Positions 4,453 through 22,185 are shown, counted from the stretch's first letter. The stretch is DNA of 61,915 bases from Candidatus Helicobacter avicola (GCA_019112865.1 DXIN01000019.1:1-61915); one strand, 5' to 3'. A program made the numbers and translations. Notes: generated by a model not told the origin, from the letters alone.

Positions 4453-4483
4453 AGTAAGACTCTCCATATTGATGTTAGAAATT

Positions 4484-4513
4484 TATAAAAAGATTGAAAA
4501 TGGTAATTTTCAT
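4484..4513 (-). promoter_or_regulatory. Shared upstream element, copy C
   Basis: On the minus strand this stretch carries the core ATGAAAATTACCATTTTCAA, also present on the plus strand at 4636-4657 and 9561-9584. It lies just upstream of the cytidylyltransferase-RraA gene and is followed closely by TATAAAT, a plausible -10 box. Three separate transcription units of the locus therefore begin behind the same sequence. It may be a duplicated promoter or operator, or the remnant of a shared gene start, since each copy opens with ATG and reads M-K-I-T-I-(F/Y)-N-L. Confidence 0.5.
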
Positions 4514-4609
4514 ACAATCTTAAACTTGCTAATCCCCGTATTGTAGTGTTTTTTTCTTAAAAGTTATTTAAAAATTGTGCTACTTTTTGTAAATCATAAA
4601 ACAGCAAAT

Positions 4610-4629
4610 CCCTAAAAATAGGGGTTTTT
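4610..4629 (+). other. Small hairpin with T-run, weak terminator candidate
   Basis: CCCTA (4610-4614) and TAGGG (4619-4623) form a five-pair stem with an AAAA loop, followed by G and five Ts. It lies in the 240-base gap between the divergent cytidylyltransferase genes and directly precedes copy A of the shared upstream element. The short stem makes it a weak terminator at best; an attenuator-like role is possible. Confidence 0.25.
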
Positions 4630-4633
4630 ACAT

Positions 4634-4659
4634 TTATGAAAATTACCATTTACAATCTT
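4634..4659 (+). promoter_or_regulatory. Shared upstream element, copy A
   Basis: This is the plus-strand copy of the element found at 4484-4513 (minus) and 9561-9584 (plus), with one base changed in the core. It stands about 40 bases before the start of the cytidylyltransferase at 4697. TATGAAAT follows at 4675 or so as a possible -10 region. The copy also opens a 29-codon reading frame that ends inside the next gene, which could be a leader peptide or chance. Confidence 0.5.
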
Positions 4660-4696
4660 GCAAAATATGAAATAAAGCTTTTTGAAAGGGTAAGTG

Positions 4697-5383
4697 ATGT
4701 ATGTAGCAATTATCCCGGTGCGTGAAGGCTCACAGCGCGTAAAAAATAAAAATATCAAACCCTTTGCTAGCAGCTCTCTGCTTGAAATAAAGATACGCCA
4801 AATGCTACGTATCAAAGCACTTGGGTGTATTGATGAGGTTATTGTCAATTCGGATTCTAAGGCTATGCTAGAGCTAGCAGCCAAACTCGGAGCGACACCC
4901 ATAGAGCGCGAGAAATACTACGCAAGCAGCGAAGTGCCTATCAACGAAGCATTGCATAACTTCGCGAGTAATGCACAGGGCGAGTATATACTGCTGTGCA
5001 ATGCCACAAGTCCGCTCATCACAGACAAAAGCATTATCGCGTGCATACAGATATTTAAGAAAAATCTTTTAGCTTATGACTCACTTGCTACGACAAATCT
5101 CTGCAAAGAATTCCTCTATCTCAATGGCAAAGCTCTCAATTACGATCCCACACACAAGCCACGCTCACAAGATTTGCCAGATATTTTGGTGCTCAATAGC
5201 GCACTTTATATCATTTCGCGCTCACTTATGATTGCCAAACGCGATGTCGTGGGAGATAAGCCATATTTTTTTACCATTAGTCAGCTTGAGAGCGTGGATA
5301 TAGACAGCGAGCTAGACTTCCAAATCGCGGAATTTCTGTATAAGAATCATATAGGGGGGGGGCAGGAGATAAATGCTCGCTAA
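4697..5383 (+). CDS. Acylneuraminate-type cytidylyltransferase with 3' poly-G tract
   Basis: This roughly 228-residue protein is predicted to activate a 2-keto-3-deoxy sugar acid with CTP to the CMP-sugar. IIPVREGSQRVKNKNIKPF is the family's N-terminal nucleotide-binding loop, CNATSPL the central motif, PRSQDLPDILVLNSALYII the substrate region, and ESVDIDSELDF the Asp-containing C-terminal motif. The ATG at 4697 has GAAAGGG upstream; a GTG three bases earlier is in frame. The enzyme core ends just before nine Gs at 5354-5362. With nine Gs the protein ends ten residues later at 5383. With ten Gs the frame would run 44 codons further and stop at 5518-5520 (total 274 residues), overlapping the start of the next cytidylyltransferase. 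First gene of a plus-strand operon. Confidence 0.88.
   Translation: MYVAIIPVREGSQRVKNKNIKPFASSSLLEIKIRQMLRIKALGCIDEVIVNSDSKAMLELAAKLGATPIEREKYYASSEVPINEALHNFASNAQGEYILLCNATSPLITDKSIIACIQIFKKNLLAYDSLATTNLCKEFLYLNGKALNYDPTHKPRSQDLPDILVLNSALYIISRSLMIAKRDVVGDKPYFFTISQLESVDIDSELDFQIAEFLYKNHIGGGQEINAR
5354..5362 (+). repeat. Poly-G tract T1 (9 G), 3' end of cytidylyltransferase
   Basis: Nine consecutive Gs. As read, translation stops early at 5383. Ten Gs (or seven) put the frame into the joint, ending ...Q-E-V-A-stop on the ATG at 5517/5520. This is a slipped-strand contingency site that should affect the tail and translational coupling, not the catalytic core. Confidence 0.85.
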
Positions 5384-5516
5384 AGACTACGCAAATCTCA
5401 CAATCTGCTTGGGAATCTTGGCGGCTTACATTTGGAGATTGTATAGCAGCGCACACATTAGATTCTGTATTTGCCCCTATATCCTTAGATTCTACGCGAT
5501 TTGCGCAAGAGGTGGC

Positions 5517-6191
5517 ATGATGAAAGTGGTCGCCTTTGTCCCTATTAAACTTCATAACGAAAGAACACCCGGAAAGAATCTAAAAACATTCTATGATGGA
5601 ACTCCTCTTGTGCATTTTGTGCAAAAAACCCTACTTCAGTGCAAGGATATTGATGAGCGATATATCTTTTGCAGTAGCGAATCCATAAAACCCTACATAC
5701 TAGATGGTATAAAGTTTCTTAAGCGAAGTGAAAATCTCGATAGCAAGGAAACACTTTGTGGAGATTTGATACGAGCGTTTATAAATGCGGTAGATTCAGA
5801 TATTTACATTATGGCACACGCCACACTGCCATTTGTGAGAGTTGAAACTTATGAGAATTGTATCAAAGTAGTAAAAGATGGACTCTACACCTCATCAATG
5901 CCAGCACTTAAGATTCAAAATCTCATTTGGTTTAGAAATGCACCACTTAATTTCAAACTTGATAAGCCTCCTAGAACACAAGACTTAGAGCCCATCTTTT
6001 CCGAAGTAGCTTCACCTTGTGTATTTTATAAAGATGTATTTTTCAAATATGGCAACAGAAGTGGTGATAAGCATTTTTTCTATGAAGTCAATCACATAGA
6101 AGCTATAGATATTGACTATCCACAAGATTTCGAATTTGCAAACCTTGTCTATAAGAATCTTCTAAATGGGGGGGGGGCAGTAGATGTCTAG
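5517..6191 (+). CDS. Acylneuraminate-type cytidylyltransferase with 3' poly-G tract
   Basis: A CMP-sugar synthetase of about 224 residues. FVPIKLHNERTPGKNLKTF is the CTP loop (P-x-K variant instead of P-x-R), MAHATLPFV the middle motif, PRTQDLEPIFSEVASPCVFY the substrate region and IDIDYPQDFEFA the C-terminal metal motif. Two adjacent ATGs (5517, 5520) follow GTGGC, overlapping the TGA that the preceding gene reaches in its long phase. The open frame extends upstream to 5373, but that part is the preceding gene's joint in another frame and is not homologous to the family. Ten Gs at 6168-6177 follow the enzyme core; as read the protein ends at 6191. Eleven Gs would lead into a 24-codon joint ending at 6250. 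It is a close paralogue of the next gene. Confidence 0.86.
   Translation: MMKVVAFVPIKLHNERTPGKNLKTFYDGTPLVHFVQKTLLQCKDIDERYIFCSSESIKPYILDGIKFLKRSENLDSKETLCGDLIRAFINAVDSDIYIMAHATLPFVRVETYENCIKVVKDGLYTSSMPALKIQNLIWFRNAPLNFKLDKPPRTQDLEPIFSEVASPCVFYKDVFFKYGNRSGDKHFFYEVNHIEAIDIDYPQDFEFANLVYKNLLNGGGAVDV
6168..6177 (+). repeat. Poly-G tract T2 (10 G), 3' end of cytidylyltransferase
   Basis: Ten Gs. As read the gene stops at 6191. Eleven Gs give a 244-residue protein ending ...A-Q-E-V-A with its TGA at 6248-6250, inside the tandem ATGs at 6247/6250 of the next gene. Nine Gs stop immediately. Confidence 0.85.
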
Positions 6192-6246
6192 CATACTTTT
6201 TGCAATCCTCACATTGTATTTTGCCACATCGTGCGCAAGAGGTGGC

Positions 6247-6909
6247 ATGATGAAAGTAGTTGCCTATATCCCAATCAAGCTCAACAACGAGCGACTACCA
6301 AATAAAAATATCAAAACCTTTTTTGACAAAACACCACTCATACACTTTGTGCAAAAAACACTTTTGCAAATCCCTGATATTAGCCAAATCTATGTGTATT
6401 GCAGTGATGAAGCCATAAAGCCCTATCTGCTTGAAAGCGTGCAGTTTTTGCAACGCTCAAAGTCCCTAGACACTCAACAAACGCTATGCGGGGATATCAT
6501 AGATTCGTTTATCAATACAATCAAATCTGATATTTATGTCCTAGCACATGCTACTGCGCCATTTGTCAATGCACAAACCTACATCAAATGTATAGAATCT
6601 GTCAAGTCCGGTATGTTTGATTCTGCATTTGGAGCAAGAAAATACCAAAATTTTGTGTGGTATCGCAATAAGCCTCTAAATTTTTCTCTCGATAGGGCGT
6701 TACGCACACAGGATATGTCCCCCGTATATCACGAGGTTTCCTCGCCCTATGTCTTTACACAGCAAACCTTTGAAACATACCGAGGAAGGACAGGTGCAAA
6801 TCCCTATATATGTGAGTGTAGCGAGATTGAAAGCATAGACATTGATTACCCACAAGACTTTGAACTCGCAAATATGGTGTATCAAAATATTATCAAAGGA
6901 AAAAAATGA
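6247..6909 (+). CDS. Acylneuraminate-type cytidylyltransferase
   Basis: A 220-residue CMP-sugar synthetase closely related to the preceding gene. YIPIKLNNERLPNKNIKTF forms the CTP loop, LAHATAPFV the central motif, RTQDMSPVYHEVSSPYVFT the substrate region and IDIDYPQDFELA the C-terminal motif. The start is the ATG at 6247 (a second follows at 6250), matching the family N-terminus. This copy has no poly-G tract at its 3' end. Instead its TGA overlaps the ATG of the DRE-TIM aldolase gene (ATGA, 6906-6909), so synthesis of the activating enzyme and the aldolase is directly coupled. That constant linkage is the simplest version of the aldolase-cytidylyltransferase module seen elsewhere in the locus. 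Confidence 0.88.
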   Translation: MMKVVAYIPIKLNNERLPNKNIKTFFDKTPLIHFVQKTLLQIPDISQIYVYCSDEAIKPYLLESVQFLQRSKSLDTQQTLCGDIIDSFINTIKSDIYVLAHATAPFVNAQTYIKCIESVKSGMFDSAFGARKYQNFVWYRNKPLNFSLDRALRTQDMSPVYHEVSSPYVFTQQTFETYRGRTGANPYICECSEIESIDIDYPQDFELANMVYQNIIKGKK

Positions 6910-8537: not shown

Positions 8538-8559
8538 TCTACAATTATGAAAGTATAAT
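8533..8559 (+). promoter_or_regulatory. Promoter region of methyltransferase gene
   Basis: Two TATAAT boxes stand at 8533-8538 and 8554-8559, the second 21 bases before the ATG at 8580. AAAAAGGAG follows as ribosome-binding site. This marks an independent transcription start within the locus. Confidence 0.5.
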
Positions 8560-8579
8560 AAAAACAAAAAGGAGAAGCG

Positions 8580-9470: not shown

Positions 9471-9560
9471 AATCACATAGGGCTATTCCCCCCTAGTGAT
9501 CCAAAAACTTGTATTTTATCTACTTTAAATCCCCTCTATAACTACACTAATTAAGTATTT

Positions 9561-9584
9561 ATGAAAATTACCATTTTCAATCTT
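9561..9584 (+). promoter_or_regulatory. Shared upstream element, copy B
   Basis: This is the third copy of the sequence at 4484-4513 (minus) and 4634-4659 (plus), with core ATGAAAATTACCATTTTCAA. It lies 37 bases before the ATG of the cytidylyltransferase at 9621, and GTATAAGG follows at about 9605 as a possible -10 region. The open reading frame that begins here runs into the next gene, but the family alignment starts only at 9621. The rest of the 9471-9620 gap shows nothing else. Confidence 0.5.
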
Positions 9585-9620
9585 TTTTGGCACTTAGATG
9601 TATTGTATAAGGAAGATTCT

Positions 9621-10523
9621 ATGGAGATAACGGCTGTTGTGGTAGCACGCAAGGGTTCAGTAAGGATAAAGTCCAAATCTATGCTAGAACTTGGTGGTCG
9701 AAGTCTCATAGAGCGCAAGATACTTCAACTAAAAGCTACTAGGCAGATTCATAGGGTGGTCTTTGGGTCAGATTGTGGGCAAATGCGCTCCATTGCACGA
9801 GCTGCAGGAGCAGAGGTCGTGGAACGCGGGGCGTATTTTTGTGATGAAAGTAGAGCGAGTGCCAATGAAATGATAGGGGAGATGATGTCTCTTATCCGCA
9901 CCGATGTCGTTGTGTGGGCGCATTGCACCAATCCTCTCATTAGCGCGCACACATACGATGCTGCTATCAGCGCGTTTTTGTCCAATATCCCAAGATACGA
10001 CAGCTTGTGCTCGGTAGTCGAGCTTAGAGAGCATCTCTGGTGTGGCGACAAACACACACCGCTAAATTACAATCCATACGCGTCCCGCCACACTCCAGCC
10101 AAAGCCCTGCCACCGCTATATATGCAAGATGGTGGGATTTTTATACAGTCTTATGCGCAAATGAAGGCGAATAGTTATTTTTTTGGCAAAAAGCCGTATT
10201 TGTTTGAAATACCAAAAGAGGAGTTTCTAGACATCAATGAAATGCGTGATTATCTCTTAGCAAGGGCGATTATAGAATCTTATGCCACCAGCGGTATGCA
10301 AGAGCGTGGCTCTCGTGATAATAGAATAGAATCTAGCGTTGCCAACGACATTATAGAATCCAAAAAATCCCAAAGTAATGACAAATCCACTTTCGGGGGG
10401 GGGGCAAATAGATATAGCTTATTTAGCCGCCTAAAAGAGATTTCCCCTACCAATTCTTGCTTTAAGACACATTCCACCTTGGGCGCGCTCGTCTTAGATG
10501 TCCCTACCAAAAGGGTGGCGTAA
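9621..10523 (+). CDS. Acylneuraminate-type cytidylyltransferase with joint tail (in phase)
   Basis: A 300-residue protein; residues 1-230 are the CMP-sugar synthetase. VVVARKGSVRIKSKSML is the CTP loop, AHCTNPL the middle motif, PLYMQDGGIFIQ the substrate region and EEFLDINEMRDY the C-terminal motif. The ATG at 9621 has AAGGAAG upstream. Residues beyond 235 are not part of the family: they are low-complexity, repeat-derived sequence (a degenerate AANDI-type repeat at 10276-10370), then ten Gs at 10395-10404 and a 40-residue joint ending T-K-R-V-A. The TAA at 10521-10523 shares its last A with the ATG of the next gene. In this copy the tract is in the phase that reaches the next start codon. 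Confidence 0.86.
   Translation: MEITAVVVARKGSVRIKSKSMLELGGRSLIERKILQLKATRQIHRVVFGSDCGQMRSIARAAGAEVVERGAYFCDESRASANEMIGEMMSLIRTDVVVWAHCTNPLISAHTYDAAISAFLSNIPRYDSLCSVVELREHLWCGDKHTPLNYNPYASRHTPAKALPPLYMQDGGIFIQSYAQMKANSYFFGKKPYLFEIPKEEFLDINEMRDYLLARAIIESYATSGMQERGSRDNRIESSVANDIIESKKSQSNDKSTFGGGANRYSLFSRLKEISPTNSCFKTHSTLGALVLDVPTKRVA
10395..10404 (+). repeat. Poly-G tract T4 (10 G), 3' part of cytidylyltransferase, joint phase
   Basis: Ten Gs preceded by TTTC. As read, the frame continues through the joint to a TAATG overlap with the fusion gene at 10523. Any one-base change would stop translation upstream and uncouple the next gene. Confidence 0.85.
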
Positions 10524-12298
10524 TGAAAATCGTGAGTGTTATGCCTATAAAAATACATAGCAAAAGACTTCCAAACAAGAATCTCCTAAAGCTTGGCGAC
10601 ACATTTTTGCTCAATCACAATCTCAAAACTCTCCTTTCTCTAGATATGCTAGATGATATTTATGTGTATTGCAGCCAAGAAAGCATTATGGAGTATGTCC
10701 CAAAGGGAGTGAAGTTTCTCCAAAGAGATGTGAGGCTGGATAGTGATGAGAGTAATTTCACTCAAATTTTTGAAGCTTTTAGTGCTGTGGTTTGCGCGGA
10801 TATTTATGTCTATACACATGCTACTGCGCCGTTTTTATCCCAAAAATCTCTGCAGGCGTGTATCAATAGTGTGCTCAAAGAGGGCTATGACTCGGCATTT
10901 AGCGCGACTAGGATTCAAGATTTTTTATGGACAAAGGACTTTGTGCCACTAAACTTTGATGCGCATAATGTCCCAAGAAGCCAGGATTTGGAAGTGATAT
11001 ATCGGGAAACATCGGGTGTGTATGTGTTTAAAAATGAGGTTTTTAGGGAGTTACGCAGGAGGATTGGCAACAATCCCAAAGCCATAGAAGTGAGCTTCAA
11101 GGAAGCAATCGACATTAATACCAAAGAAGATTTTGAACTCGCAGAGATTATCCAATCCCACGATAGATTCAATGTATGTGTGTCAGTATGTAATGATGGC
11201 GGAGTGAGGGTGGATTCACTCCACACGAGCGATACACAAGAACGAAGTTCTTGCATTGAAATAATAAAAGGAGACCAAATGCCAAAGATACTTGATTGCA
11301 CCTTGCGAGATGGAGGCTATGTAGTCGATTGGGAGTTTGGGGAGCAAAATATTATACAAATGATTGATGGGCTTTGTGCGGCGCATATAGACTTTATAGA
11401 ATGTGGGTATCTCAACTCCCAGATTCACGCACCCAATAAAAGCATATTTACTAGCATTGAACGCATTGCGGAGGTTTTGCCCACAGATAGAGGGGTAAGT
11501 AAGTTTTTGGCGATGGCTGATGTAACGCAATTTCGCCCTCAAGATATCACAAATCGTAGTGGCAAGTCGATTGATGGCTTAAGAATTGTGTTTTATAAGC
11601 ACCAGATACAAGAGGCGTTAGCACTTTGCCAACAAAGTATCCAATGCGGCTATGAGACTTTTATGCAACCAATGGTAACCATAGACTATACTTTGCAAGA
11701 ATACGAGAATCTAATCCAAGAGTTATGCAAGCTTGATATACAATGTATTTCGATTGTGGATAGTTTTGGCTATATGACTAAGCGAGATATTCGGCGGTAT
11801 TTTGATGTGATAGATTCTCTTGCGCCTAAGCAGATGATGATAGGTTTTCACTCGCACAACAATATGGATTTAGCCTTTAACTGCGCCCAAGATATTTTAG
11901 AATACGACACCAAAAGGACGCTTGTCATAGATGCTTCCTTAGAGGGTATGGGACGTGGTGCTGGCAACCTCTACACCGAGCTTATCACACAATACTACAA
12001 TGCGATGCTCACTCCAAAATATGATATTCAAAAAATCTTAGACTTGATAAGTGCCTACATTGAACCTATCAAAAAGCATAAACAATGGGGATATAGCCCA
12101 TATTTTTTCATCACAGCTTTGTATGGGTGCCACCCAAACTTTGCTACCTATCTGCTAGAGATAGAGCCTAGTATTAGTGTATCGGAGTTTAAGGAATTTG
12201 TGCGCCTCATACCCGCAGATATGAGAACAAAGTGCAAAAAGCCCTATGTGGAGGAGCTATATAGGATATTTAGCTCTCGGGGGGGGGGGGCAATTTAG
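10523..12298 (+). CDS. Fusion: cytidylyltransferase + DRE-TIM aldolase, linked through a repeat element
   Basis: A 591-residue fusion. Residues 1-212 are a CMP-sugar synthetase (VMPIKIHSKRLPNKNLL, THATAPFL, PRSQDLEVIYRETSGVYVF, AIDINTKEDFELA). Residues 213-252 are translated from a two-hairpin repeat element (11187-11275). Residues 253-585 are a DRE-TIM pyruvate-aldolase domain: DCTLRDGGY, GFHSHNNMDLAF and DASLEGMGRGAGN hold the metal and glycine-loop residues. The aldolase has its own ATG at 11279 preceded by AAGGAG five bases away, so a separate aldolase polypeptide is likely besides the fusion. Unlike its paralogues it lacks the C-terminal extra domain. Twelve Gs at 12279-12290 end the frame at 12298; ten or thirteen Gs would carry it through the joint to 12411 (629 residues with thirteen). 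The fusion supports a shared pathway for aldolase and cytidylyltransferase. Confidence 0.85.
   Translation: MKIVSVMPIKIHSKRLPNKNLLKLGDTFLLNHNLKTLLSLDMLDDIYVYCSQESIMEYVPKGVKFLQRDVRLDSDESNFTQIFEAFSAVVCADIYVYTHATAPFLSQKSLQACINSVLKEGYDSAFSATRIQDFLWTKDFVPLNFDAHNVPRSQDLEVIYRETSGVYVFKNEVFRELRRRIGNNPKAIEVSFKEAIDINTKEDFELAEIIQSHDRFNVCVSVCNDGGVRVDSLHTSDTQERSSCIEIIKGDQMPKILDCTLRDGGYVVDWEFGEQNIIQMIDGLCAAHIDFIECGYLNSQIHAPNKSIFTSIERIAEVLPTDRGVSKFLAMADVTQFRPQDITNRSGKSIDGLRIVFYKHQIQEALALCQQSIQCGYETFMQPMVTIDYTLQEYENLIQELCKLDIQCISIVDSFGYMTKRDIRRYFDVIDSLAPKQMMIGFHSHNNMDLAFNCAQDILEYDTKRTLVIDASLEGMGRGAGNLYTELITQYYNAMLTPKYDIQKILDLISAYIEPIKKHKQWGYSPYFFITALYGCHPNFATYLLEIEPSISVSEFKEFVRLIPADMRTKCKKPYVEELYRIFSSRGGGAI
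11187..11275 (+). repeat. Two-hairpin element E1 (fusion linker)
   Basis: Hairpin 1 is GTGGA-TTCAC-TCCAC at 11210-11224. Hairpin 2 is CAAGAAC-GAA-GTTCTTG at 11237-11253. The copy is translated in frame as the linker of the cytidylyltransferase-aldolase fusion, and its 3' end supplies AAAAGGAG for the internal ATG at 11279. Confidence 0.75.
12279..12290 (+). repeat. Poly-G tract T5 (12 G), 3' end of fusion gene
   Basis: This is the longest tract. As read the gene stops at 12296-12298. With thirteen or ten Gs the frame continues G-N-L-V-A-L-M-G-S-Y-G... to ...V-D-K-V-A, stopping at 12409-12411 on the ATG of the next aldolase. The same joint sequence follows tract T9 at 19673. The 12299-12410 stretch is otherwise noncoding joint. 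Confidence 0.85.
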
Positions 12299-12410
12299 TA
12301 GCCCTTATGGGCAGTTATGGAGCAGCAAAGCTCGCGCCTATAGAATCACAACTTTTGCGTGCGAGTCGCCTAATGCAAAAGTGCAGTATATGTGTGGATA
12401 AGGTCGCTTG

Positions 12411-14096: not shown

Positions 14097-15172
14097 GTAT
14101 AAATGTCTTTTTGCCTTGCAGGAAGGGTAGTGAGCGCGTGCCACGCAAAAATACTAAGCCTATTGGGAGATTTGCAAATGGGCTTTTAGAGCTTAAGCTC
14201 TCCCAGCTTTTGGACACGCGCGAGATTGATAGGATTTTTGTGAGCTCTAATGATGATGAGGTGCTAGGCTTTGCCCAAAGCCTCAAGAGTGCCAAAATCA
14301 TCACACACAAACGCGATGAGAATCTCTGTGCTAGCTCTACAAGCACAGATTCACTCATCGCTTATGCTCATGAGCTTGTGGGTGAGGGGGAGATCCTCTG
14401 GACACATGTAACTTCGCCGTTTTTTGGAAGTAAGCAATACAGCGAGGTTATAGCGCAATATCGTGCGTGCTTGGAGCAAGGATATGATTCACTTATGAGT
14501 GTCAATGCGCTTTATGGATTTTTGTGGGATAGTAGTAAGCCTTTAAATTATGATAGGGCTAAGGTCAAATGGCCCCAGACACAGAATCTCACGCCGATAT
14601 TTGAAGTCAATAGTGCGTGTTTTTTGGCAAATGCGCAAGTCTATCGCACACAAGAAGATAGGATAGGACAAAAGCCGTATTTGTATATCACAGACAAAAT
14701 CACGGGCTTTGATGTGGATTGGCAAGAGGATTTTGCCATCGCTCAAGCACTTTTAGAATCCACACAGAGCCAAAGAGCGAATGTGTTAGGTTTGTCATCT
14801 TTCGGGGGGGGGGTAATTGCCTATAAGAGAAATACACAATCCTTTCATTTATACCACACCAACACTCCAAAATCAAATAATCCATTGATACTAAACGACA
14901 CTTTAGATTCTAGAGAATCTATTGTATGTTCGCACAGCAGGAGCAATGGGGGCTTAGCTCACATTGCCGATAGCAATTTGCCACAGAATCTAGCGTATAG
15001 AAAAGATGTTTGCCTAGAACGCCTTGATGACGCTCCGACACCAAGCAGGGCTTTAGATTCTAAAAAATTTCTTGTATGCACGCGAAGCGGAGCGAGTGGC
15101 AATTCACTTGCCACGAGCGATAACAAGTTTGCAGAGCAAACTTGCAATAAAATAATGGAGTGTGTGGCGTGA
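14093..15172 (+). CDS. Acylneuraminate-type cytidylyltransferase with long joint tail (in phase)
   Basis: A 359-residue protein. Residues 1-230 form the CMP-sugar synthetase: FLPCRKGSERVPRKNTKPI (CTP loop), THVTSPFF, WPQTQNLTPIFEVNSACFL and GFDVDWQEDFAIA. The ATG at 14093 overlaps the preceding stop; the GTG six bases upstream is less likely. Ten Gs at 14804-14813 are followed by about 115 residues of joint sequence with no family similarity, built from two repeat copies (14930-14990 and 15085-15150) and ending N-K-I-M-E-C-V-A. The TGA at 15170-15172 overlaps the ATG of the next gene, and GGAG of the joint lies 11 bases before that ATG. The tract is in the joint phase. Confidence 0.86.
   Translation: MSINVFLPCRKGSERVPRKNTKPIGRFANGLLELKLSQLLDTREIDRIFVSSNDDEVLGFAQSLKSAKIITHKRDENLCASSTSTDSLIAYAHELVGEGEILWTHVTSPFFGSKQYSEVIAQYRACLEQGYDSLMSVNALYGFLWDSSKPLNYDRAKVKWPQTQNLTPIFEVNSACFLANAQVYRTQEDRIGQKPYLYITDKITGFDVDWQEDFAIAQALLESTQSQRANVLGLSSFGGGVIAYKRNTQSFHLYHTNTPKSNNPLILNDTLDSRESIVCSHSRSNGGLAHIADSNLPQNLAYRKDVCLERLDDAPTPSRALDSKKFLVCTRSGASGNSLATSDNKFAEQTCNKIMECVA
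14804..14813 (+). repeat. Poly-G tract T6 (10 G), joint phase
   Basis: Ten Gs preceded by TTTC. As read, translation continues about 115 codons to a TGATG overlap at 15170-15174. A shift of one base would end the frame near the tract. Confidence 0.85.
14930..14995 (+). repeat. Two-hairpin element E7, partial
   Basis: Hairpin 1 variant CAATGGGGGCTTAGCTCACATTG at 14944-14966 has a mismatched stem. The second hairpin begins GCAATTTG but is interrupted by the AATCTAGCGTATAG segment, exactly as at 16031-16050. A shared block follows (AAAAGAT then CCTAGAACG then CTTGATGACGC) that recurs at 16060-16100. Confidence 0.6.
15085..15150 (+). repeat. Two-hairpin element E3, joint
   Basis: Hairpin 1 is GTGGCAA-TTCAC-TTGCCAC at 15096-15114. 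Hairpin 2 is CAAGTTTGC-AGA-GCAAACTTG at 15124-15144. Both stems are perfect and differ from E2 by paired changes. It is followed by CAATAAAATAATGGAG and the stop/start overlap of two cytidylyltransferase genes. Confidence 0.78.
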
Positions 15173-16236
15173 TGAAAAATATAGTTTGTGTGATTCCTGC
15201 TAGGTATGCCTCTAGTAGATTCCCAGGCAAGCCTTTGGCGGATATTTGTGGGAAACCTATGGTATGGTGGGTGTATCAAGAAGCCAAGAAGCTTGCAGAT
15301 GTCTGTGGAGTGTATGTCGCTACCGAGAGTCCCTTGCTAATGCGTGAGTGTCAAGAAATGGGCTTAGATGTGATTCTCACTGCTGATACACACGCGAGTG
15401 GCACGGATAGGGTTGCTGAAGTTGCACGCAGACTTGATGCGGATTGGTATCTCGTGTGGATGGGAGATGAGCCACTTATCAAAGCCCAAGAGATTGCACA
15501 GCTTTTGTCTCAAGCGCGCACAAAGATAGGTTATGAAGCCTATATGCTTGCAAAAACTTTTGACAATCCCGTAGATGTAGTGAATCCCACGACTATCAAA
15601 CTTGCGCTCAACAAACATCAAGAGCTTGTGTTTATGTCGCGCTCTTGCATACCATTCCCCAAATCCGCATTGCATTATAACTACTACAAAAATATAGGTG
15701 CATACTTGATGAGTGCGGAGGTTTTGGAGTTTTTTGCACAGACAGAAGTTGGGGATTTGGAGCATATTGAGGAAATTGAACTTTTGCGACTTTTGGAAAA
15801 TCATAAAAAAATCTTTGTTTGCTTACTTGAGGATTCTCTATCTATGTCAGTGGATACGCCCAAAGATTTACAACGCGTTGTGCAGCTCATAGAATCTGGT
15901 GCTAATGGTGATGTTGCAGAATCTAAAGCGCGATGTAAGCATAAATTTTTATCTTTCGGGGGGGGGGTAAATAGATATACCCTTACAAGACAAAAGTTAG
16001 AATCTAAGGGAGATTCACTCTCCACGAGTGATAGCAATTTGCCAGAGAATCTAGCGTATAGAAAAGATATTTACCTAGAACGTCTTGATGACGCACTGAC
16101 ACCAAAGATTTTAGAATCTCGCAAAGATTGCAGTGTATGTGCGCGCAGCGGAGGCAATGGGGGCTTAGCTCCCATTGGTGATACCAAGTTTTGCTATCGC
16201 AAAACTTGCAATAAAGCAATGGAGCGTGTGGCATGA
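15172..16236 (+). CDS. KdsB-like cytidylyltransferase with joint tail (in phase)
   Basis: A 354-residue protein whose first 240 residues match the 3-deoxy-manno-octulosonate cytidylyltransferase (KdsB) family. CVIPARYASSRFPGKPLADI is the CTP loop, SGTDRVAEVA a KdsB signature, MGDEPLI the metal-site motif, and SVDTPKDLQRV the C-terminal motif. It may not be the housekeeping Kdo enzyme, because a second KdsB-like gene follows directly and both carry phase-variable tails. Ten Gs at 15958-15967 are followed by about 90 joint residues with two-hairpin repeats, ending N-K-A-M-E-R-V-A; the TGA overlaps the next ATG at 16233. The open frame upstream of 15172 belongs to the preceding joint. Confidence 0.87.
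   Translation: MKNIVCVIPARYASSRFPGKPLADICGKPMVWWVYQEAKKLADVCGVYVATESPLLMRECQEMGLDVILTADTHASGTDRVAEVARRLDADWYLVWMGDEPLIKAQEIAQLLSQARTKIGYEAYMLAKTFDNPVDVVNPTTIKLALNKHQELVFMSRSCIPFPKSALHYNYYKNIGAYLMSAEVLEFFAQTEVGDLEHIEEIELLRLLENHKKIFVCLLEDSLSMSVDTPKDLQRVVQLIESGANGDVAESKARCKHKFLSFGGGVNRYTLTRQKLESKGDSLSTSDSNLPENLAYRKDIYLERLDDALTPKILESRKDCSVCARSGGNGGLAPIGDTKFCYRKTCNKAMERVA
15958..15967 (+). repeat. Poly-G tract T7 (10 G), joint phase
   Basis: Ten Gs preceded by TTTC. As read, the frame runs through the joint to an ATGA overlap at 16233-16236. Confidence 0.85.
16005..16215 (+). repeat. Composite two-hairpin elements E4a/E4b, joint
   Basis: E4a has GGAGA-TTCAC-TCTCC at 16009-16023 and a broken second hairpin. 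E4b has a hairpin with CAATGGG and CCCATTG arms (16155-16177) and CAAGTTTTGC-TATC-GCAAAACTTG at 16185-16208, a ten-pair perfect stem. The block between them repeats the one at 14988-15050. The unit ends ATGGAGCGTGTGGCATGA, giving ribosome-binding site, stop and next start. Confidence 0.75.
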
Positions 16237-16997
16237 GAATAATAGGTGTCATTCCCGCACGCTTTGCTTCTAGTAGGTTTCCGGGCAAACCTTTAGCTCT
16301 TATCAATGGTGTGCCGATGATCAAGCACACTTATACCCAAGCTCTAGGTGCGAAATCGCTTGATACACTTATAGTCGCCACAGATAGCGAGGAGATTGAG
16401 TGCTATTGCCACTCCCAAGCCATACCAGTAATGATGACAAGCCCCACTCATCTCACGGGAACAGATAGAGTCGCAGAAGTTGCCACAAGGCTTCCAGCGG
16501 ATTTGTATATCAATATACAGGGCGATGAGCCACTGATACAGCCTCAAAGTATCGAGGAGGTCATAGCGGAGTTTGCAAGTTATGGGGATAGCTATATGGC
16601 GTATAATCTCTACAAAAGCGCAGATTCTAAAGAAGCCCAAAGCCCTCATACTATCAAAGTCATCACTAATACTCAAGATGAGCTTTTGTATATGTCTAGG
16701 ACACTTATCCCTCATAGTAAGCAGGGCAAAGAGGTGATGTATAAAAAGCAGGTGTGCGTATATGGCTTCAGTCCGCAAGCTCTTAAAATTTTTGCAAGGC
16801 ACAAAAAGACTTACAATGAGAGTTATGAAGATATTGAAATTTTGCGATTTTTGGAGCTGGGCTTTAAAGTCAAGATGAAAGAGACACAATATAGTTCTAT
16901 TTCTGTGGATACGCCAAGTGATGTAGCAAGGGTGAAGGAGGCTCTACGCACCGCAAGTAGCAAACCCAATTTCGGGGGGGGGGGTAATTGCCTATAA
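16233..16997 (+). CDS. KdsB-like cytidylyltransferase, tail out of joint phase
   Basis: A 254-residue KdsB-family CMP-sugar synthetase. GVIPARFASSRFPGKPLALI is the CTP loop, TGTDRVAEVA and IQGDEPLIQ the central motifs, and SVDTPSDVARV the C-terminal motif; its IQGDEPLIQ is closer to canonical KdsB than the WMGDEPLI of the preceding paralogue. Either could be the Kdo enzyme for lipid A, and I cannot decide which. Eleven Gs at 16974-16984 end the protein five codons later at 16997. With ten Gs the frame would stay open for about 190 more codons to 17565 (443 residues) and overlap the start of the HpcH/HpaI aldolase. Confidence 0.87.
   Translation: MRIIGVIPARFASSRFPGKPLALINGVPMIKHTYTQALGAKSLDTLIVATDSEEIECYCHSQAIPVMMTSPTHLTGTDRVAEVATRLPADLYINIQGDEPLIQPQSIEEVIAEFASYGDSYMAYNLYKSADSKEAQSPHTIKVITNTQDELLYMSRTLIPHSKQGKEVMYKKQVCVYGFSPQALKIFARHKKTYNESYEDIEILRFLELGFKVKMKETQYSSISVDTPSDVARVKEALRTASSKPNFGGGGNCL
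16974..16984 (+). repeat. Poly-G tract T8 (11 G), out of joint phase
   Basis: Eleven Gs preceded by TTTC. The gene stops at 16997 as read. With ten Gs the frame is open to 17565, ending M-E-R-V-A on the ATG at 17562. Confidence 0.85.
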
Positions 16998-17148
16998 GTC
17001 AAAATTAGAATCTAGTTTTAACAATTTAGATTCAAATTCAGAATCTAGCTCCTTAGATTCACATTCTCACGGATATTATTTGGTTTCACAAAATCGCTTG
17101 TTTTCGCAAAAGAAAAAGGGGTTTCCCCTCTCCCCGCTCTCCCCAGCC

Positions 17149-17182
17149 CCGAAAAAGATAAAGCGCCGCTTTTCTTTTTCGG
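17149..17182 (+). repeat. Palindrome with nested stem
   Basis: Arms CCGAAAAAGA (17149-17158) and TCTTTTTCGG (17173-17182) pair perfectly. Inside them AAGCG and CGCTT form a second stem. There is no T-run after the arms, so a terminator is unlikely; it resembles a palindromic repeat that keeps the cryptic frame open. Confidence 0.65.
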
Positions 17183-17217
17183 CAATCGGGGAAAGTGCCT
17201 CGCTACTTCCGCTTCTA

Positions 17218-17267
17218 GCGCAATCGTTGCGGAGGGCACTACTGCCTCCTTTTTCCAACGATTGCGC
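17218..17267 (+). repeat. Palindrome with 12-bp perfect stem
   Basis: GCGCAATCGTTG (17218-17229) is the exact reverse complement of CAACGATTGCGC (17256-17267). The enclosed bases contain GGAGGGCA and TGCCTCC, a second, imperfect stem. It is part of the cryptic tail behind tract T8. Confidence 0.7.
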
Positions 17268-17464
17268 ACCACGAAGCGGGCGAGGGGTGGTTGGTGCTAT
17301 CGCACCTACACATTGTAATGGGGCAAAGCCAAACGCGGAGTTTAGAGAAAACATAGAATCTCGTGTGGGCTTAGAATCAAGCTTGGTTTATAGAGAATCT
17401 GCCAGCCCAAATCGCGTTCCTGACGCGCTGACACCAAAGATTTTAGAATCTCGCAAAGATTGCA

Positions 17465-17561
17465 GTATATGTGCGCGCAGCGGAGCGAGGGTGGATTTAC
17501 TCCAGCCGAGTGATAGCAATTTGCCAGAGACAAATTGCATAAGCATAATGGAGCGTGTGGC
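17465..17561 (+). repeat. Two-hairpin element E5, joint
   Basis: Hairpin 1 is TGGA-TTTAC-TCCA near 17492-17504, with outer bases partly paired. Hairpin 2 is GCAATTTG-CCAGAGA-CAAATTGC at 17516-17538. The end ATGGAGCGTGTGGCATGATG supplies GGAG, stop and start for the HpcH/HpaI aldolase. Confidence 0.72.
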
Positions 17562-18338
17562 ATGATGTTTGGCACAGAAAAGCTCCTATACACCCAGCTA
17601 TGCAAGCTCAAAAATGAGTATGGACTGCAAGGCATCAAGGCTGAATTTGAGGCAGAAGGGGCGAGTTTTCGCGATATTATGCGACTTAGGCGACTTACTT
17701 CGAGTGCGGGTGTGAAGCTACATATAAAAATCGGTGGTGTAGAAGCCCTGCGGGATATAAAAGACGCGATAGAAATCGGCGTAGATGGTGTCATCGCACC
17801 TATGGTAGAGAGCGTGTTTGGTGCCAAAAAGTTTTATGAGGGTATTAAGAAATTTTATAAAGACACTCCTATCCACACCACACTCAATATCGAAACCAAA
17901 ACTGCCATAGATAATTTAAGCGAGATCTTGGCATATGCCAGCGGTAAATTTAGCAACATCAACATCGGGCGTTCGGATTTGAGTGCTTCGTTTTTAAAGC
18001 CAGAAATCACACCAGAGAGTGAGCAAATTTATACTATTCTCTCTGATGTGATTTGCCAAATGCGAGAGTATGCTCTCACACTTGGTATCGGCGGAGGCTT
18101 AAGCCGCACAAGTATTCAAAACCTAAACACCACCTATGCTTCTCTCAAGCCTCACATAAACCAGCTTGAAACGCGCAAGGTCATACTACCAACACAGAGT
18201 TTTTGTGAGAGAGTAGAGGCGATTAAAGAGGCTTTGAAGTTTGAGGAGCTCTATATCCTATCCAAAAAAGAATTTAGCGATTTGCATATAGATTCTGAAA
18301 TCGCGCGCTTACCAGAGTTAAAAAGGAGAATGTCATGA
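17562..18338 (+). CDS. HpcH/HpaI-type aldolase (citrate lyase beta family)
   Basis: A 258-residue TIM-barrel protein of the HpcH/HpaI aldolase/citrate lyase beta family. Visible are KIGGVEALRDIKDAIEIG, GVDGVIAPMVES (family signature), LNIETKTAIDN with the metal-ligand Glu, and NIGRSDLSASFL with the metal-ligand Asp. Known members condense or cleave pyruvate with aldehydes. Tandem ATGs at 17562/17565 overlap the TGA the upstream gene reaches in its ten-G phase; as read, upstream translation stops 560 bases earlier. It overlaps the next cytidylyltransferase (ATGA at 18335), making a third aldolase-cytidylyltransferase pair with a fold unrelated to the other two. The donor and acceptor are not predictable from sequence. 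Confidence 0.78.
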   Translation: MMFGTEKLLYTQLCKLKNEYGLQGIKAEFEAEGASFRDIMRLRRLTSSAGVKLHIKIGGVEALRDIKDAIEIGVDGVIAPMVESVFGAKKFYEGIKKFYKDTPIHTTLNIETKTAIDNLSEILAYASGKFSNINIGRSDLSASFLKPEITPESEQIYTILSDVICQMREYALTLGIGGGLSRTSIQNLNTTYASLKPHINQLETRKVILPTQSFCERVEAIKEALKFEELYILSKKEFSDLHIDSEIARLPELKRRMS

Positions 18339-18994
18339 GTTTTTGTGTGATTATCCCTGCTCAAGATTCCAATCGTTACCACAGAGATGGCGATCTCGCC
18401 CCATTTGGCGATACGACACTGCTAGAGTGGAAAATCGCTCAATGCAAAGAGTTCGCCCCAAAGTCTCAAATCTACATCAGCTCCCAAAGCTCAAAAATAC
18501 GCGATATAGCATTGCGCGAGGGTGTGGAGTTCGTGCCACGTGATGGCACAAAAAGCTATATGCAAAACATTCAAGAACTACTTGATTGTCTTAGGTTTGA
18601 GGATATTGTCTATACGCATTGCACCACGCCATTTATCAGTGCTAGTGTGTATCAAAGTATGTATGAGGAATTTGTGAGGGCAGGGCATAGTGCGCTTGTT
18701 TCGGTCAAAGAACTTCATGAATTTATTTTCTACCAAGGCAAGAGGCTCAATGTAGAAAATGCCTTTGCTTTGCGCACGCAAACCGAGCCGGTGCTGTTAG
18801 TAGTCAATGGGTGTTATATCTTTAAGCGCGCTAAGGCTAAGCAGACACAAAATTTTATCTTTGCAGATTCTACATTTTTTAAGCTTGAGAATCTCGCGAG
18901 TATCGAGATTAAAGACATAGAGGATTATACGATAGCCAGAGAGCTTATCACGATGTATTTTGCTAAGGAGGTTGGAAATGAGCATAGGCATTAG
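18335..18994 (+). CDS. Acylneuraminate-type cytidylyltransferase (divergent)
   Basis: A 219-residue CMP-sugar synthetase coupled to the HpcH/HpaI aldolase by an ATGA overlap. VIIPAQDSNRYHRDGDLAPF occupies the CTP-loop position but lacks the usual basic residues of the PxRxxSxR motif, so activity or substrate may differ. THCTTPFI, RTQTEPVLLVVNGCYIF and LASIEIKDIEDY match later family motifs. It overlaps the following cytidylyltransferase by 17 bases. It has no poly-G tract. The altered loop could mean loss of CTP binding or use of another nucleotide. Confidence 0.72.
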   Translation: MSFCVIIPAQDSNRYHRDGDLAPFGDTTLLEWKIAQCKEFAPKSQIYISSQSSKIRDIALREGVEFVPRDGTKSYMQNIQELLDCLRFEDIVYTHCTTPFISASVYQSMYEEFVRAGHSALVSVKELHEFIFYQGKRLNVENAFALRTQTEPVLLVVNGCYIFKRAKAKQTQNFIFADSTFFKLENLASIEIKDIEDYTIARELITMYFAKEVGNEHRH

Positions 18995-19748
18995 CGCGAT
19001 TATCCCTGTGCGAGAGGGTTCAAAGAGATTGAAGCACAAAAATATCTTACCCTTTGGGGATAGTAATCTCCTCATACACAAGATTCGTCAGCTTAAAAAA
19101 GTCGATGGGATAAGCGAGATTATCGTCTCATCAGATAGTAAGACAATGCTAGAAATGGCGCGTAGTGAGGGAGTAGCCACACACAAGCGAAAGAGAGAGT
19201 TTGCCGATGAACGCACCAAAAGTTTTAGTGAGCTTATCGAGCATTTAGCTAGTGATGTGGGGAGTGGAGAGCATATTTTATACGCGCCTTGTGTGTGTCC
19301 GCTGTGTGATGAAAAAGACTTGGCAAATGCCATAGAGGTGTATGGGCATAAGGTGATTGAATCTAGGGAGTTTGATAGTGTGATTTCTGTGCGGAGCTTT
19401 AAAGAATATCTTTGGGATAGTTTTAAACCCATAAACTACCGCACAGGCATACATCATACACCCTCACAGAATCTCCCAGAATACTTTGTGGTAGTCAATG
19501 GATTTTACCTTGCTGCGCGTGAGAATATGCGCAAATGGCGGTATTTTTTTGGCACACGACCCTATCAGGTGCATTTGCCACAAGCCCACGCTATAGACAT
19601 TGATACAGAGTTTGATTATATCTGTGCTAAAGCATGGTATGCGCAGACACAAGCTCATTCTCGGGGGGGGGGCAATTTAGTAGCCCTTATAGGCAGTTAT
19701 GGAGGACTAAGCCCACGATTGTCATCTTCACACGCGAGGGTAGCGTGA
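18978..19748 (+). CDS. Acylneuraminate-type cytidylyltransferase with joint tail (in phase)
   Basis: A 256-residue CMP-sugar synthetase. IIPVREGSKRLKHKNILPF is a textbook CTP loop, CVCPLCDEKD the central region, TPSQNLPEYFVVVNGFYLA the substrate region and AIDIDTEFDYICA the C-terminal motif. The ATG at 18978 follows AAGGAGG seven bases upstream, inside the end of the preceding gene. Ten Gs at 19663-19672 lead into a 25-residue joint with the same G-N-L-V-A-L-I-G-S-Y-G sequence that lies silent behind tract T5, ending H-A-R-V-A. The TGA overlaps the ATG of the epimerase at 19748. The N-terminus resembles the proteins at 4697 and 21508. Confidence 0.88.
   Translation: MSIGISAIIPVREGSKRLKHKNILPFGDSNLLIHKIRQLKKVDGISEIIVSSDSKTMLEMARSEGVATHKRKREFADERTKSFSELIEHLASDVGSGEHILYAPCVCPLCDEKDLANAIEVYGHKVIESREFDSVISVRSFKEYLWDSFKPINYRTGIHHTPSQNLPEYFVVVNGFYLAARENMRKWRYFFGTRPYQVHLPQAHAIDIDTEFDYICAKAWYAQTQAHSRGGGNLVALIGSYGGLSPRLSSSHARVA
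19663..19672 (+). repeat. Poly-G tract T9 (10 G), joint phase
   Basis: Ten Gs preceded by CTC. As read, the frame continues through CAATTTAGTAGCCCTTAT in the non-stop phase to a TGATG overlap with the epimerase gene. At T5 the same joint is read in the stop phase. Confidence 0.85.
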
Positions 19749-20659
19749 TGAAGATTCTTATCACTGGTGGAGCAGGGTTTATCGGCACGGCATTAGCGCG
19801 CAAGCTCACAGATTTAGCTTATGAAGTGAGTTTGCTTGATTTGCCCCAAAGGTTTAAGCCCTATCACAAAGAGTATGAATGCTATGAGGTGGATATACGA
19901 CAGAGTGAGGATTTCAAAGTATTAGAACACAAGCAATTTAGTCATATATTCCATTTGGCTGCTCAAACCTCCGGGGCTATCTCGCAAGAAAATCCGACCT
20001 TAGATGTTGATACCAATGTCAAAGGCACGCTCAATGTATGCAATTTCGCACGCGCTTGTGGGGCGCAAAAGATTATCTTTAGCTCCTCTATGGCGACATA
20101 TGGCAACCAAGAGGGCAATATCTCTGAATCTACCCCACTCACTCCTCTCTCAAACTATGGCGTCTCCAAGCTCTGTGGCGAAGCCTATATCAAAAGCTTT
20201 GGGCAATTTGATATACAATGGAGTATTTTTAGGCTTTTTAATGTTTATGGACCTGGGCAGGATATGCACAACCTTAAGCAAGGTATGGCAAGTATCTTTA
20301 TGGCGCAAGCCCTTACATCAGATTGTATTCGCGTAACCGGCTCACTGCAACGATATAGGGATTTTGTGTATATTGATGATGTGGTGCAAGCCTTGCTTTT
20401 GGGCTTAGAGGGTAGGACAGATTCACAGGTCTATAATGTCGGGAGTGCGCGTGCTACGCGTGTGAGAGAGCTTATAGAGTGTATTTTATCACTCTGCCAT
20501 AGAGAATCCCTTGAAGTGTGCAATGTCGGAGGGCATGAGGGCGATACATTTGGCTCACTTGCAGATATTACCAAACTCCAAAGCCTTGGCTGGAGTCCCA
20601 AAGTCTCGCTCACAGAGGGACTAAGTAAAATGTATGCTTATGCGCGAGGTGTGTTATGA
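19748..20659 (+). CDS. NAD-dependent epimerase/dehydratase (GalE-like extended SDR)
   Basis: A 303-residue extended short-chain dehydrogenase acting on nucleotide sugars. ILITGGAGFIG (residues 3-13) is the NAD-binding GxxGxxG, SSSMATYG supplies the Ser, and YGVSK the catalytic Tyr-x-x-x-Lys. RLFNVYGPGQ and RDFVYIDDV are typical of the UDP/dTDP-sugar epimerase-dehydratase group. The ATG at 19748 overlaps the preceding joint's TGA; the open frame upstream to 19634 includes the tract and is not homologous. It overlaps the next cytidylyltransferase (ATGA at 20656). The likely role is sugar-nucleotide precursor supply; 4-epimerisation versus dehydration is undecided. Confidence 0.87.
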   Translation: MKILITGGAGFIGTALARKLTDLAYEVSLLDLPQRFKPYHKEYECYEVDIRQSEDFKVLEHKQFSHIFHLAAQTSGAISQENPTLDVDTNVKGTLNVCNFARACGAQKIIFSSSMATYGNQEGNISESTPLTPLSNYGVSKLCGEAYIKSFGQFDIQWSIFRLFNVYGPGQDMHNLKQGMASIFMAQALTSDCIRVTGSLQRYRDFVYIDDVVQALLLGLEGRTDSQVYNVGSARATRVRELIECILSLCHRESLEVCNVGGHEGDTFGSLADITKLQSLGWSPKVSLTEGLSKMYAYARGVL

Positions 20660-21384
20660 AAGTCGCGGCATTACTCACAGGCAGGGGTAATAACACATTG
20701 CCAGATAAAAATATCCTCCCGCTTCTTGGTGCGCCACTCCTAAGCTATCCAGCGAGGGCGGCATTGGCAGTGGAGAGTATCGGTAGATTTTTTGTCAGCA
20801 GTGATGATGAGAAGATTCTGTGCATCGCACAGGATTTGGGCTTCACGCCGATTAAACGCCCACAGGAGCTAGCCTTGCCCACCTCCCAGCACATTGATGC
20901 GATTTTGCACGCACTTACTTATATGGATTCACATTTTGATTTTATGCCCGATGTGCTCGTGGTGCTACTCGCAAACTCTGCAACTATCAAAAGCGAGTGG
21001 ATAGCACAAGCTATTGCGATGATAGGACAAGATTCTAGCATTAGTGCAGTCGTGCCGGTGCAAAATGACCAAGACCACCACCCCTATCGTGCTAAGCGGC
21101 TAAATGCGCAGGGAAGCCTCGAGCCGTTTTTTGAGTTTGGCGATATGGAGGTCTCAACTAATCGGCAGGATTTAGAATCTTGCTATTTTTTGTGCCACAA
21201 CTTTTGGGTGCTCAATCTCGCAAAGTCTCTGTATGCCAAAGGTGGGCAAAAGCCTTGGGTATTTTTGGGTAATAATATCAAGCCTATTATCACACAAGGC
21301 TGTTTTGATGTGCATACGCTTGAGGACTTGGCTAAAAGTGAGGAGTGGCTAAGGGCTCAAATACGCTCTCGGGGGGGGGGGTAA
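20656..21384 (+). CDS. Acylneuraminate-type cytidylyltransferase, tail out of joint phase
   Basis: A 242-residue, somewhat divergent CMP-sugar synthetase. ALLTGRGNNTLPDKNILPLL is the nucleotide loop, VVLLANSATIKSEWI the middle motif and CFDVHTLEDLAKSEEWL the C-terminal motif; the central SAVVPVQNDQDHHPYRAKRL segment is characteristic of the NeuA family with a longer insert. Eleven Gs at 21371-21381 are followed directly by TAA. Twelve or nine Gs would open a 45-codon joint ending at 21515 and overlapping the next gene's start. That joint contains A-R-V-A followed by S-A-V-C-Y-A: the usual TGA after V-A has become TCG, so the stop moved downstream. Confidence 0.8.
   Translation: MKVAALLTGRGNNTLPDKNILPLLGAPLLSYPARAALAVESIGRFFVSSDDEKILCIAQDLGFTPIKRPQELALPTSQHIDAILHALTYMDSHFDFMPDVLVVLLANSATIKSEWIAQAIAMIGQDSSISAVVPVQNDQDHHPYRAKRLNAQGSLEPFFEFGDMEVSTNRQDLESCYFLCHNFWVLNLAKSLYAKGGQKPWVFLGNNIKPIITQGCFDVHTLEDLAKSEEWLRAQIRSRGGG
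21371..21381 (+). repeat. Poly-G tract T10 (11 G), out of joint phase
   Basis: Eleven Gs preceded by CTC, then TAA. Twelve Gs would give a 286-residue product whose TGA (21513-21515) overlaps the ATG at 21508. The 123-base stretch 21385-21507 is this silent joint. Confidence 0.85.
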
Positions 21385-21507
21385 ATAGATATTTCCCTAA
21401 AAGAAATTCGTCTTTGGCGCAATCTTTTAGAGATTCACAAACAAAATTCCTAGATTCTCACAAGATTTGCACTTTTAGCATAGCTAGAGTGGCATCGGCG
21501 GTGTGCT

Positions 21508-22185
21508 ATGCTTGAGGATTTGGCAGTGGTAATCCCCGTGCGTTTGGGGAGCTCTAGGATTAGGCACAAAGCCCTGCTACCTTTTGGCAATATGAATCTT
21601 TTGGAGTGGAAAATACATCAGATTCTAGAGATTATGCCACCAAGCAATGTGTTTGTAAGCACCGAGAGCGAGGAGCTATCAGCAATCGCCAAAAAATGTG
21701 GTGTGCGCGTGCATCGCAGGGATAGATACCTCGCCATAGGGCATAAGGCGAGCTTTAGTGAAGTGATAGTGGGGATAGTGAGAGATATAGAGTTTGCGCA
21801 TATCGCGTGGGTTACAGCCGTAGTGCCACTGATGAAGCCTAGAGAATACCAAGAGGCTTTTAGAATCTATGCCAAGTGTGTGGTGGGGGAGCAGCGATAC
21901 GATTCGCTTTTTAGCGCGAATTTGCTCAAAGAGTATTTTTGGGATAGCACCAAACCCATAAACTACCAAGCCAACAGACATCACACGATTAGCCAAGAGC
22001 TACCTGATATATTTCGTGTAACCAATGGGTTGTATATGAGAGATAGAGAATCTATCCTAAAAGATGGCTATTTTTTGGGCAAAAACCCTTATAGATTCTG
22101 TGTCTCAAAGCTCGCTGGAATTGACATCGATGAATATGAGGATTATGAAATAGCACGGACACTTCTAAGCTTGTATCGTGGCTAG
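21508..22185 (+). CDS. Acylneuraminate-type cytidylyltransferase
   Basis: A 225-residue CMP-sugar synthetase ending this operon. VVIPVRLGSSRIRHKALLPF is the CTP loop, TAVVPLM the middle motif, TISQELPDIFRVTNGLYM the substrate region and AGIDIDEYEDYEIA the C-terminal motif. It is closest in pattern to the gene at 18978 (KEYxWDSxKPINY segment in both). It has no poly-G tract and is followed by a palindrome and a new promoter, so the operon that began at 9621 may end here. Confidence 0.88.
   Translation: MLEDLAVVIPVRLGSSRIRHKALLPFGNMNLLEWKIHQILEIMPPSNVFVSTESEELSAIAKKCGVRVHRRDRYLAIGHKASFSEVIVGIVRDIEFAHIAWVTAVVPLMKPREYQEAFRIYAKCVVGEQRYDSLFSANLLKEYFWDSTKPINYQANRHHTISQELPDIFRVTNGLYMRDRESILKDGYFLGKNPYRFCVSKLAGIDIDEYEDYEIARTLLSLYRG

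Follow-up and report, generated by a model that had tools for sequence, protein, structure and literature searches.

We analyse a stretch of 61,915 nucleotides (nt) from Candidatus Helicobacter avicola (GCA_019112865.1, DXIN01000019.1:1-61915; hereafter the window), in which nine genes of a cytidylyltransferase cluster end in a run of guanines. At each of these nine joints exactly one reading phase runs through the tract and stops on the start codon of the next gene, and joints of the same design are found in other Helicobacter genomes. The best reading of this arrangement, which we hold to be probable from the sequence, is phase-variable translational coupling with an intact upstream enzyme in every phase.

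For the phase analysis, each upstream gene was translated with the tract set to n-1, n and n+1 guanines. The tracts and the linkers that follow them, with the phase leading to the next start relative to the assembly, are:

T1, 5354..5362, plus strand, nine guanines (G9); linker 5363..5520, plus strand, +1 phase open for 51 codons and ending EVA-TGA on the ATGATG of the next gene, stop at 5383 as assembled
T2, 6168..6177, plus strand, G10; linker 6178..6250, plus strand, +1 phase ending EVA-TGA on the next start
T4, 10395..10404, plus strand, G10; linker 10405..10523, plus strand, in phase, RVA-TAATG
T5, 12279..12290, plus strand, G12; linker 12291..12411, plus strand, +1 phase, KVA-TGATG
T6, 14804..14813, plus strand, G10; linker 14814..15172, plus strand, in phase for 118 codons, CVA-TGATG, holding a dispersed repeat compatible with an open reading frame (ORF)
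T7, 15958..15967, plus strand, G10; linker 15968..16236, plus strand, in phase, RVA-stop in an ATGA overlap
T8, 16974..16984, plus strand, G11; linker 16985..17565, plus strand, 192 codons open in the -1 phase, RVA-TGATG, with repeat copies inside
T9, 19663..19672, plus strand, G10; linker 19673..19748, plus strand, in phase, RVA-TGATG, the +1 phase giving an in-frame epimerase fusion
T10, 21371..21381, plus strand, G11; linker 21382..21515, plus strand, 43 codons open in the +1 phase, its YA-TGA lying eight bases inside the next gene

A preliminary description of this DNA had placed tracts at these nine positions, and all are present, with lengths of G9 to G12. It had also proposed that one phase is open through each joint and ends on the next start, with V-A-stop in eight cases. 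Phase translation bears this out at nine of nine joints: the coupling phase reads 23-192 codons beyond the tract and stops in a TGATG, TAATG or ATGA overlap (8 nt at T10), its tail ending in V-A-stop at eight joints and in Y-A-stop at T10. All three phases have different end points at every joint, so tract length alters the product by frameshift. As assembled, T4, T6, T7 and T9 are in the coupling phase and T1, T2, T5, T8 and T10 are out of it, just as described. The out-of-phase genes do stop early, although the gap to the next start, first given as 87-560 bases, has to be corrected to a range from about 55 (T2) to about 567 nt (T8). Because the tract lengths are those of a single draft assembly (1.76 Mb in 42 contigs, 99.8% complete, Helicobacteraceae), the present ON or OFF states of T1-T10 are uncertain. 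The architecture of the joints is not in doubt, since the single-contig genome of a congener shows the same design.

Based on profile searches at the nine joints, the tracts lie 3-65 codons beyond the catalytic domains. In eight cytidylyltransferases the PseF or KdsB profile is matched to within a few positions of its end before the tract is reached. For example, positions 1-221 of 222 in the PseF profile align to amino acids 4-217 of cytidylyltransferase 1, and T1 begins after codon 220. The tracts had all been assigned to the ends of cytidylyltransferase genes, which is correct for these eight; T5 instead follows the aldolase of a cytidylyltransferase-HMGL aldolase fusion, and the aldolase profile ends about 65 codons before it. 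As the PseF, KdsB and aldolase profiles all end before the tracts, the upstream enzyme should be made in every phase, and the earlier proposal that switching leaves the catalytic core intact appears sound.

The congener sample comprises H. equorum (G001, four joints), a complete single-contig genome (G002, five) and H. sp. MIT 00-7814 (G005, five); H. equorum and H. sp. MIT 00-7814 are members of the host's genus in GTDB. At all 14 tracts found at the 3′ ends of cluster genes in these genomes, one phase stops on the next start. The tails often end in RSVA, RGAA, RVA or GVA, and the linker sequences are unlike those of the window. At homologous joints, G005 and G002 carry 13 and 12, 11 and 10, and 9 and 11 guanines, which places them in different phases. 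At the H. equorum joint homologous to T9, one phase also runs in frame into the epimerase. Beyond these genomes, the design is also present in another genus at two cytidylyltransferase genes (G078, G080), with tracts of G13 and G14, and four further joints are found in a glycosyltransferase cluster of the host's own genome (contig C9).

What recurs at the joints is the end of the frame. At all nine window joints and all 14 congener joints, the stop of one phase overlaps or abuts the next start, usually with a Shine-Dalgarno (SD) sequence near the end of the upstream frame. An SD match of at least 5 nt is present at the linker end in 10 of 23 joints, compared to a background of 3.9% (p = 6e-9). 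Three homologous linker pairs give a nonsynonymous divergence (dN) of.182 and a synonymous divergence (dS) of.288, or a ratio (omega) of 0.63, with 16, 11 and 11 differences over the three codon positions, compared to an omega of 0.08-0.14 for the enzyme cores. Purifying selection on the tails was considered as the main driver and rejected, given this omega and the lack of a third-position bias. Since the tails are near-neutral while the cores are constrained, it is the open frame and its end that are conserved and not the peptide: the linker peptides drift, whereas the open frame is kept together with the SD near its end and the overlap of stop and start. Accordingly, the V-A-stop is best read as a translated SD, spacer and overlap (AGG GTG GCR TGATG), not as a peptide signal. 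Most tract-free junctions of the operon have overlaps of the same kind, with ATGA at 6906, 14093, 18335 and 20656. Coupling is therefore the default in this operon, and the tract joints would be the boundaries where it can be lost.

The two remaining phases are closed quickly. Within 15 nt of the tract, 48 of 260 codons (18.5%) are stops, compared to 131 of 2247 (5.8%) farther downstream (p = 7e-11); of the 52 off phases, 40 are terminated no more than 17 nt behind the tract. At T1 and T2 (window 5363-5384 and 6178-6190) and at the G078 joint (L106 2180-2190), the off-phase stop adjoins an ATG whose frame is that of the next gene; at T1 this ATG is preceded by AGGAGA.

The coupling frame, by contrast with these two, has zero stops in all 26 joints tested. 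Compared to dinucleotide shuffles, the openness of this frame is significant for the nine window linkers (Fisher p = 2e-8) and for the congener joints (p = 5e-5). The linkers of T6, T7 and T8 contain the dispersed repeat, a palindromic element of about 90-130 nt with at least 52 copies genome-wide, which is itself open in the coupling frame (copies in the window at 15030-15160, 16057-16190, 17389-17560, 12682-12781 and 25977-26183). Copies within ORFs longer than about 170 codons lie nearly all in one forward frame, which makes the repeat ORF-compatible and a source of inflated openness; it is much like the Rickettsia palindromic elements found in proteins. The length of the T6-T8 linkers is partly owed to the repeat, and we no longer use these long open linkers as the strongest evidence. 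Without T6, T7 and T8 the window remains significant (p = 0.006). In our conservative test, which leaves out these three because of the repeat as well as the redundant G002 joints, the other window linkers with 11 non-redundant congener joints give p = 7e-6. The earlier argument that silent open phases are improbable without selection thus holds for the set, but not in full for three of the longest, which the repeat partly explains.

Under phase-variable translational coupling, in its simplest account, slippage of a tract would switch its boundary between a coupled and an uncoupled state. In the read-through phase, terminating ribosomes would reinitiate at the next start or keep it open, and translation of the next module would rise. 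In the other phases about 55-570 nt would be left untranslated and the next module would rely on weaker de novo initiation, possibly with polarity caused by Rho. With slippage at each tract, the levels of the downstream enzymes would be stochastic and partly independent, resulting in combinatorial variety in the population. MutL was not found in the genome and MutS1 appeared only as a weak MutS-family match below cut-off, which fits unstable tracts. The size of the effect is expected to be partial.

Several observations weigh against this reading or limit its reach. Almost all of the downstream genes possess an SD of their own. We also looked for structure that hides this SD: opening energies of the joint starts in real and shuffled linkers differ by a mean z of -0.02, with no excess of hidden SDs. 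Structure hiding the downstream SD is common in coupled pairs and is not needed for reinitiation at TGATG. On the other hand, joint starts are costlier to open than other nearby starts (p ~0.01), which speaks for coupling. Because most downstream genes have their own SDs and the linkers lack an excess of hiding structure, OFF is likely to mean reduced rather than absent translation, and the dynamic range of the switch could be small. Quick off-phase stops are common at mid-gene tracts of the same genome too and are not special to the joints. Survival of the open frame between G002 and G005 was tried as proof of selection and dropped, as neutral simulation of the three homologous linker pairs gives P = 0.33. 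Other products are conceivable as well: T9 has a second productive phase (+1), predicted to yield a fusion protein of 566 amino acids in which the epimerase follows the cytidylyltransferase in frame, and its H. equorum counterpart could yield such a fusion too; an N-extended next protein is possible from the off phase of T1 and T2, as it is at the G078 joint. Finally, Rho polarity predicts the same anatomy as coupling and could add to its effect.

Polarity may even be the whole effect, with Rho terminating in the untranslated stretch so that all later genes drop together and local coupling is minor. The 55-570 nt that the off phases leave untranslated speak for this possibility; yet at T2, T9 and most congener joints the untranslated part is only 55-110 nt long, no richness in C is seen in the linkers examined, and polarity has no need for a stop placed exactly on the next start. 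We give it a modest chance. Slippage of the polymerase or the ribosome on the guanine run, which would mix the phases in every cell at a fixed ratio with no heritable switch, draws on the fact that long homopolymers can slip in transcription. The congener tracts differ in length at the same joint (G13/G12, G11/G10, G9/G11), which is consistent with slippage in the DNA; we consider such a fixed mixture highly improbable.

The tail itself may be what is switched, altering the activity, stability or partners of the cytidylyltransferase, with the overlap being incidental. The same tract position has been read in this way in H. canadensis (PMC2823697), and ON tails of 23-192 residues change the protein substantially. 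However, the tails are mostly unrelated between joints and congeners, near-neutral where homologous and largely made of the generic dispersed repeat at T6-T8, and yet every one of them ends on the next start, which leaves this account a small chance. Near-neutral tails would equally suit a non-adaptive origin, in which 3′-end tracts are tolerated as nearly harmless and open linkers stem from recent frameshifts or ORF-compatible repeats, such as the T6-T8 repeat with its many copies open in the coupling frame. Nonetheless, all 23 cluster joints of the four genomes have their stop on the following start codon, where SDs are enriched, off-phase stops are enriched, and openness is significant without T6-T8; we consider a non-adaptive origin improbable. 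The preliminary description had proposed that the tracts both tune reinitiation at the next module and alter C-termini. Tuning of reinitiation, which we hold to be somewhat more likely than not, best explains the anatomy of the joints; the tails look incidental, their peptides being nearly unconstrained.

Tracts at 3′ ends have been read both as tail variation and as acting on the next gene. In H. canadensis, Snyder et al. (2010) reported poly-G at the 3′ ends of eight genes, with length variation among the sequencing reads at every one, and termed this C-terminal phase variation (PMC2823697). The arrangement in H. canadensis and Neisseria gonorrhoeae resembles the joints in its 3′ poly-G, its three tails and an occasional fusion to the next gene (compare T9); in the excerpted text of those reports the tail is the switched property and coupling is not raised, whereas here the tail looks unconstrained and the stop-start overlap is constant (PMC2823697, PMC5320596). 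Closer still is C. jejuni cj0045, with a 3′ tract and a long frame that overlaps cj0044, for which an effect on the next gene by coupling or interference was proposed (Kim et al. 2012, reviewed in PMC8355987). The likeness lies in a 3′-end homopolymeric tract, a non-truncated frame whose stop overlaps the next start, and the suggestion of coupling. There, cj0045 and cj0044 are one pair with a suspected function, whereas the window has nine serial joints in one operon and a three-phase design conserved across species. The array is a serial, cross-species version of the arrangement suspected there, and that one Campylobacter pair anticipated the coupling idea.

Ordinary ATGA and TGATG coupling uses the same overlaps, also at the tract-free junctions of this operon; at the joints, a hypermutable tract would make the coupling switchable. 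In Neisseria hpuAB, poly-G in hpuA, the upstream gene of the operon, affects the downstream partner, as proposed for the joints, but the upstream protein is destroyed in OFF, whereas it would be kept here. What is new is the conserved serial array of such joints, 3′-end tracts themselves being already described. Whether this array of hypermutable joints, each making the coupling of a module switchable with the upstream enzyme never inactivated, amounts to a combinatorial kind of phase variation that changes stoichiometry and has been retained among Helicobacter species is a more tentative matter, to which we give slightly less than an even chance. If so, cells would vary the relative amounts of many intact sugar-activating enzymes, with up to hundreds of expression combinations per operon, unlike known contingency tracts, which mostly switch one gene on or off. 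Any 3′-end tract would then be a possible switch of the next gene, and catalogues that score the tract-bearing gene alone would misassign the target.

The cytidylyltransferase row extends over about 4.7-22.2 kb of the window and, based on profile searches, consists of PseF-like and KdsB-like enzymes, interspersed with HMGL-type and HpcH/HpaI-type aldolases, an S-adenosylmethionine (SAM) methyltransferase and an epimerase:

4694..5383, plus strand, cytidylyltransferase 1 (PseF-like; Pfam CTP_transf_3 and PseF profile), ending just past T1
5514..6191, plus strand, cytidylyltransferase 2 (profiles), starting ATG ATG at 5517/5520 and ending just past T2
9561..10523, plus strand, cytidylyltransferase 4 with the T4 tail in the coupling phase (profiles, phase translation)
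10523..12298, plus strand, cytidylyltransferase-HMGL aldolase fusion (CTP_transf_3 at amino acids 11-183, HMGL-like at 254-508), ending at T5
14087..15172, plus strand, cytidylyltransferase 6 with the T6 tail in the coupling phase (profiles, phase translation)
15160..16236, plus strand, KdsB-like cytidylyltransferase a with the T7 tail in the coupling phase, starting at 15160 or, at the overlap, at 15169/15172
16233..16997, plus strand, KdsB-like cytidylyltransferase b (profiles, phase translation), ending past T8
17535..18338, plus strand, HpcH/HpaI-type aldolase (profile), start at the joint 17562/17565
18960..19748, plus strand, cytidylyltransferase 8 with the T9 tail in the coupling phase (profiles, phase translation)
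19634..20659, plus strand, ORF with a nicotinamide adenine dinucleotide (NAD)-dependent epimerase (profile), start at the joint 19748
20656..21384, plus strand, cytidylyltransferase 9 (profiles, phase translation), ending at T10
21508..22185, plus strand, cytidylyltransferase 10 (profiles)

No NCBIfam model reaches its cut-off in the tract-bearing genes, except the KdsB subfamily models for both KdsB-like genes. We infer a pathway in which the aldolases supply 2-keto acids and the cytidylyltransferases activate them with cytidine monophosphate (CMP); the cluster is an operon whose products are probably CMP-activated acidic sugars destined for a surface glycan. Window positions 3139-22185 hold about ten divergent PseF/KdsB-like cytidylyltransferases together with RraA-, HMGL- and HpcH-type aldolases in one cluster, a diversity that suggests a wide range of CMP-activated keto-acid sugars. 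Two paralogous SAM methyltransferases carry G10 in mid-gene at a similar position (9021-9030 and 23662-23671), the classical on/off arrangement.

Tracts of at least nine guanines number 89 in the host genome and 28-116 in the congeners, compared to 0-4 in most other families of the order (two exceptions have about 20-26). One tract family of the host genome, TTAAGCTTCTTATAA-G9/10-ATAGAAT, occurs at L050 1547, L051 1526, L061 6768, L072 103 and L087 103, some of these near contig ends; at several loci it resembles a spacer tract within a promoter. In the glycosyltransferase cluster of contig C9, an ORF (L058 1433-5267) consists of the apparent C-terminal half of one GT4 enzyme and the N-terminal half of another and is flanked by tract joints, as though recombination at the tracts had permuted its parts or the region had been misassembled. 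Some stop motifs of the off phases, for example (T/C)AAATAGATA, are found again behind the tracts of unlinked genes and in G005, which suggests that a tract and its flank have been copied together.

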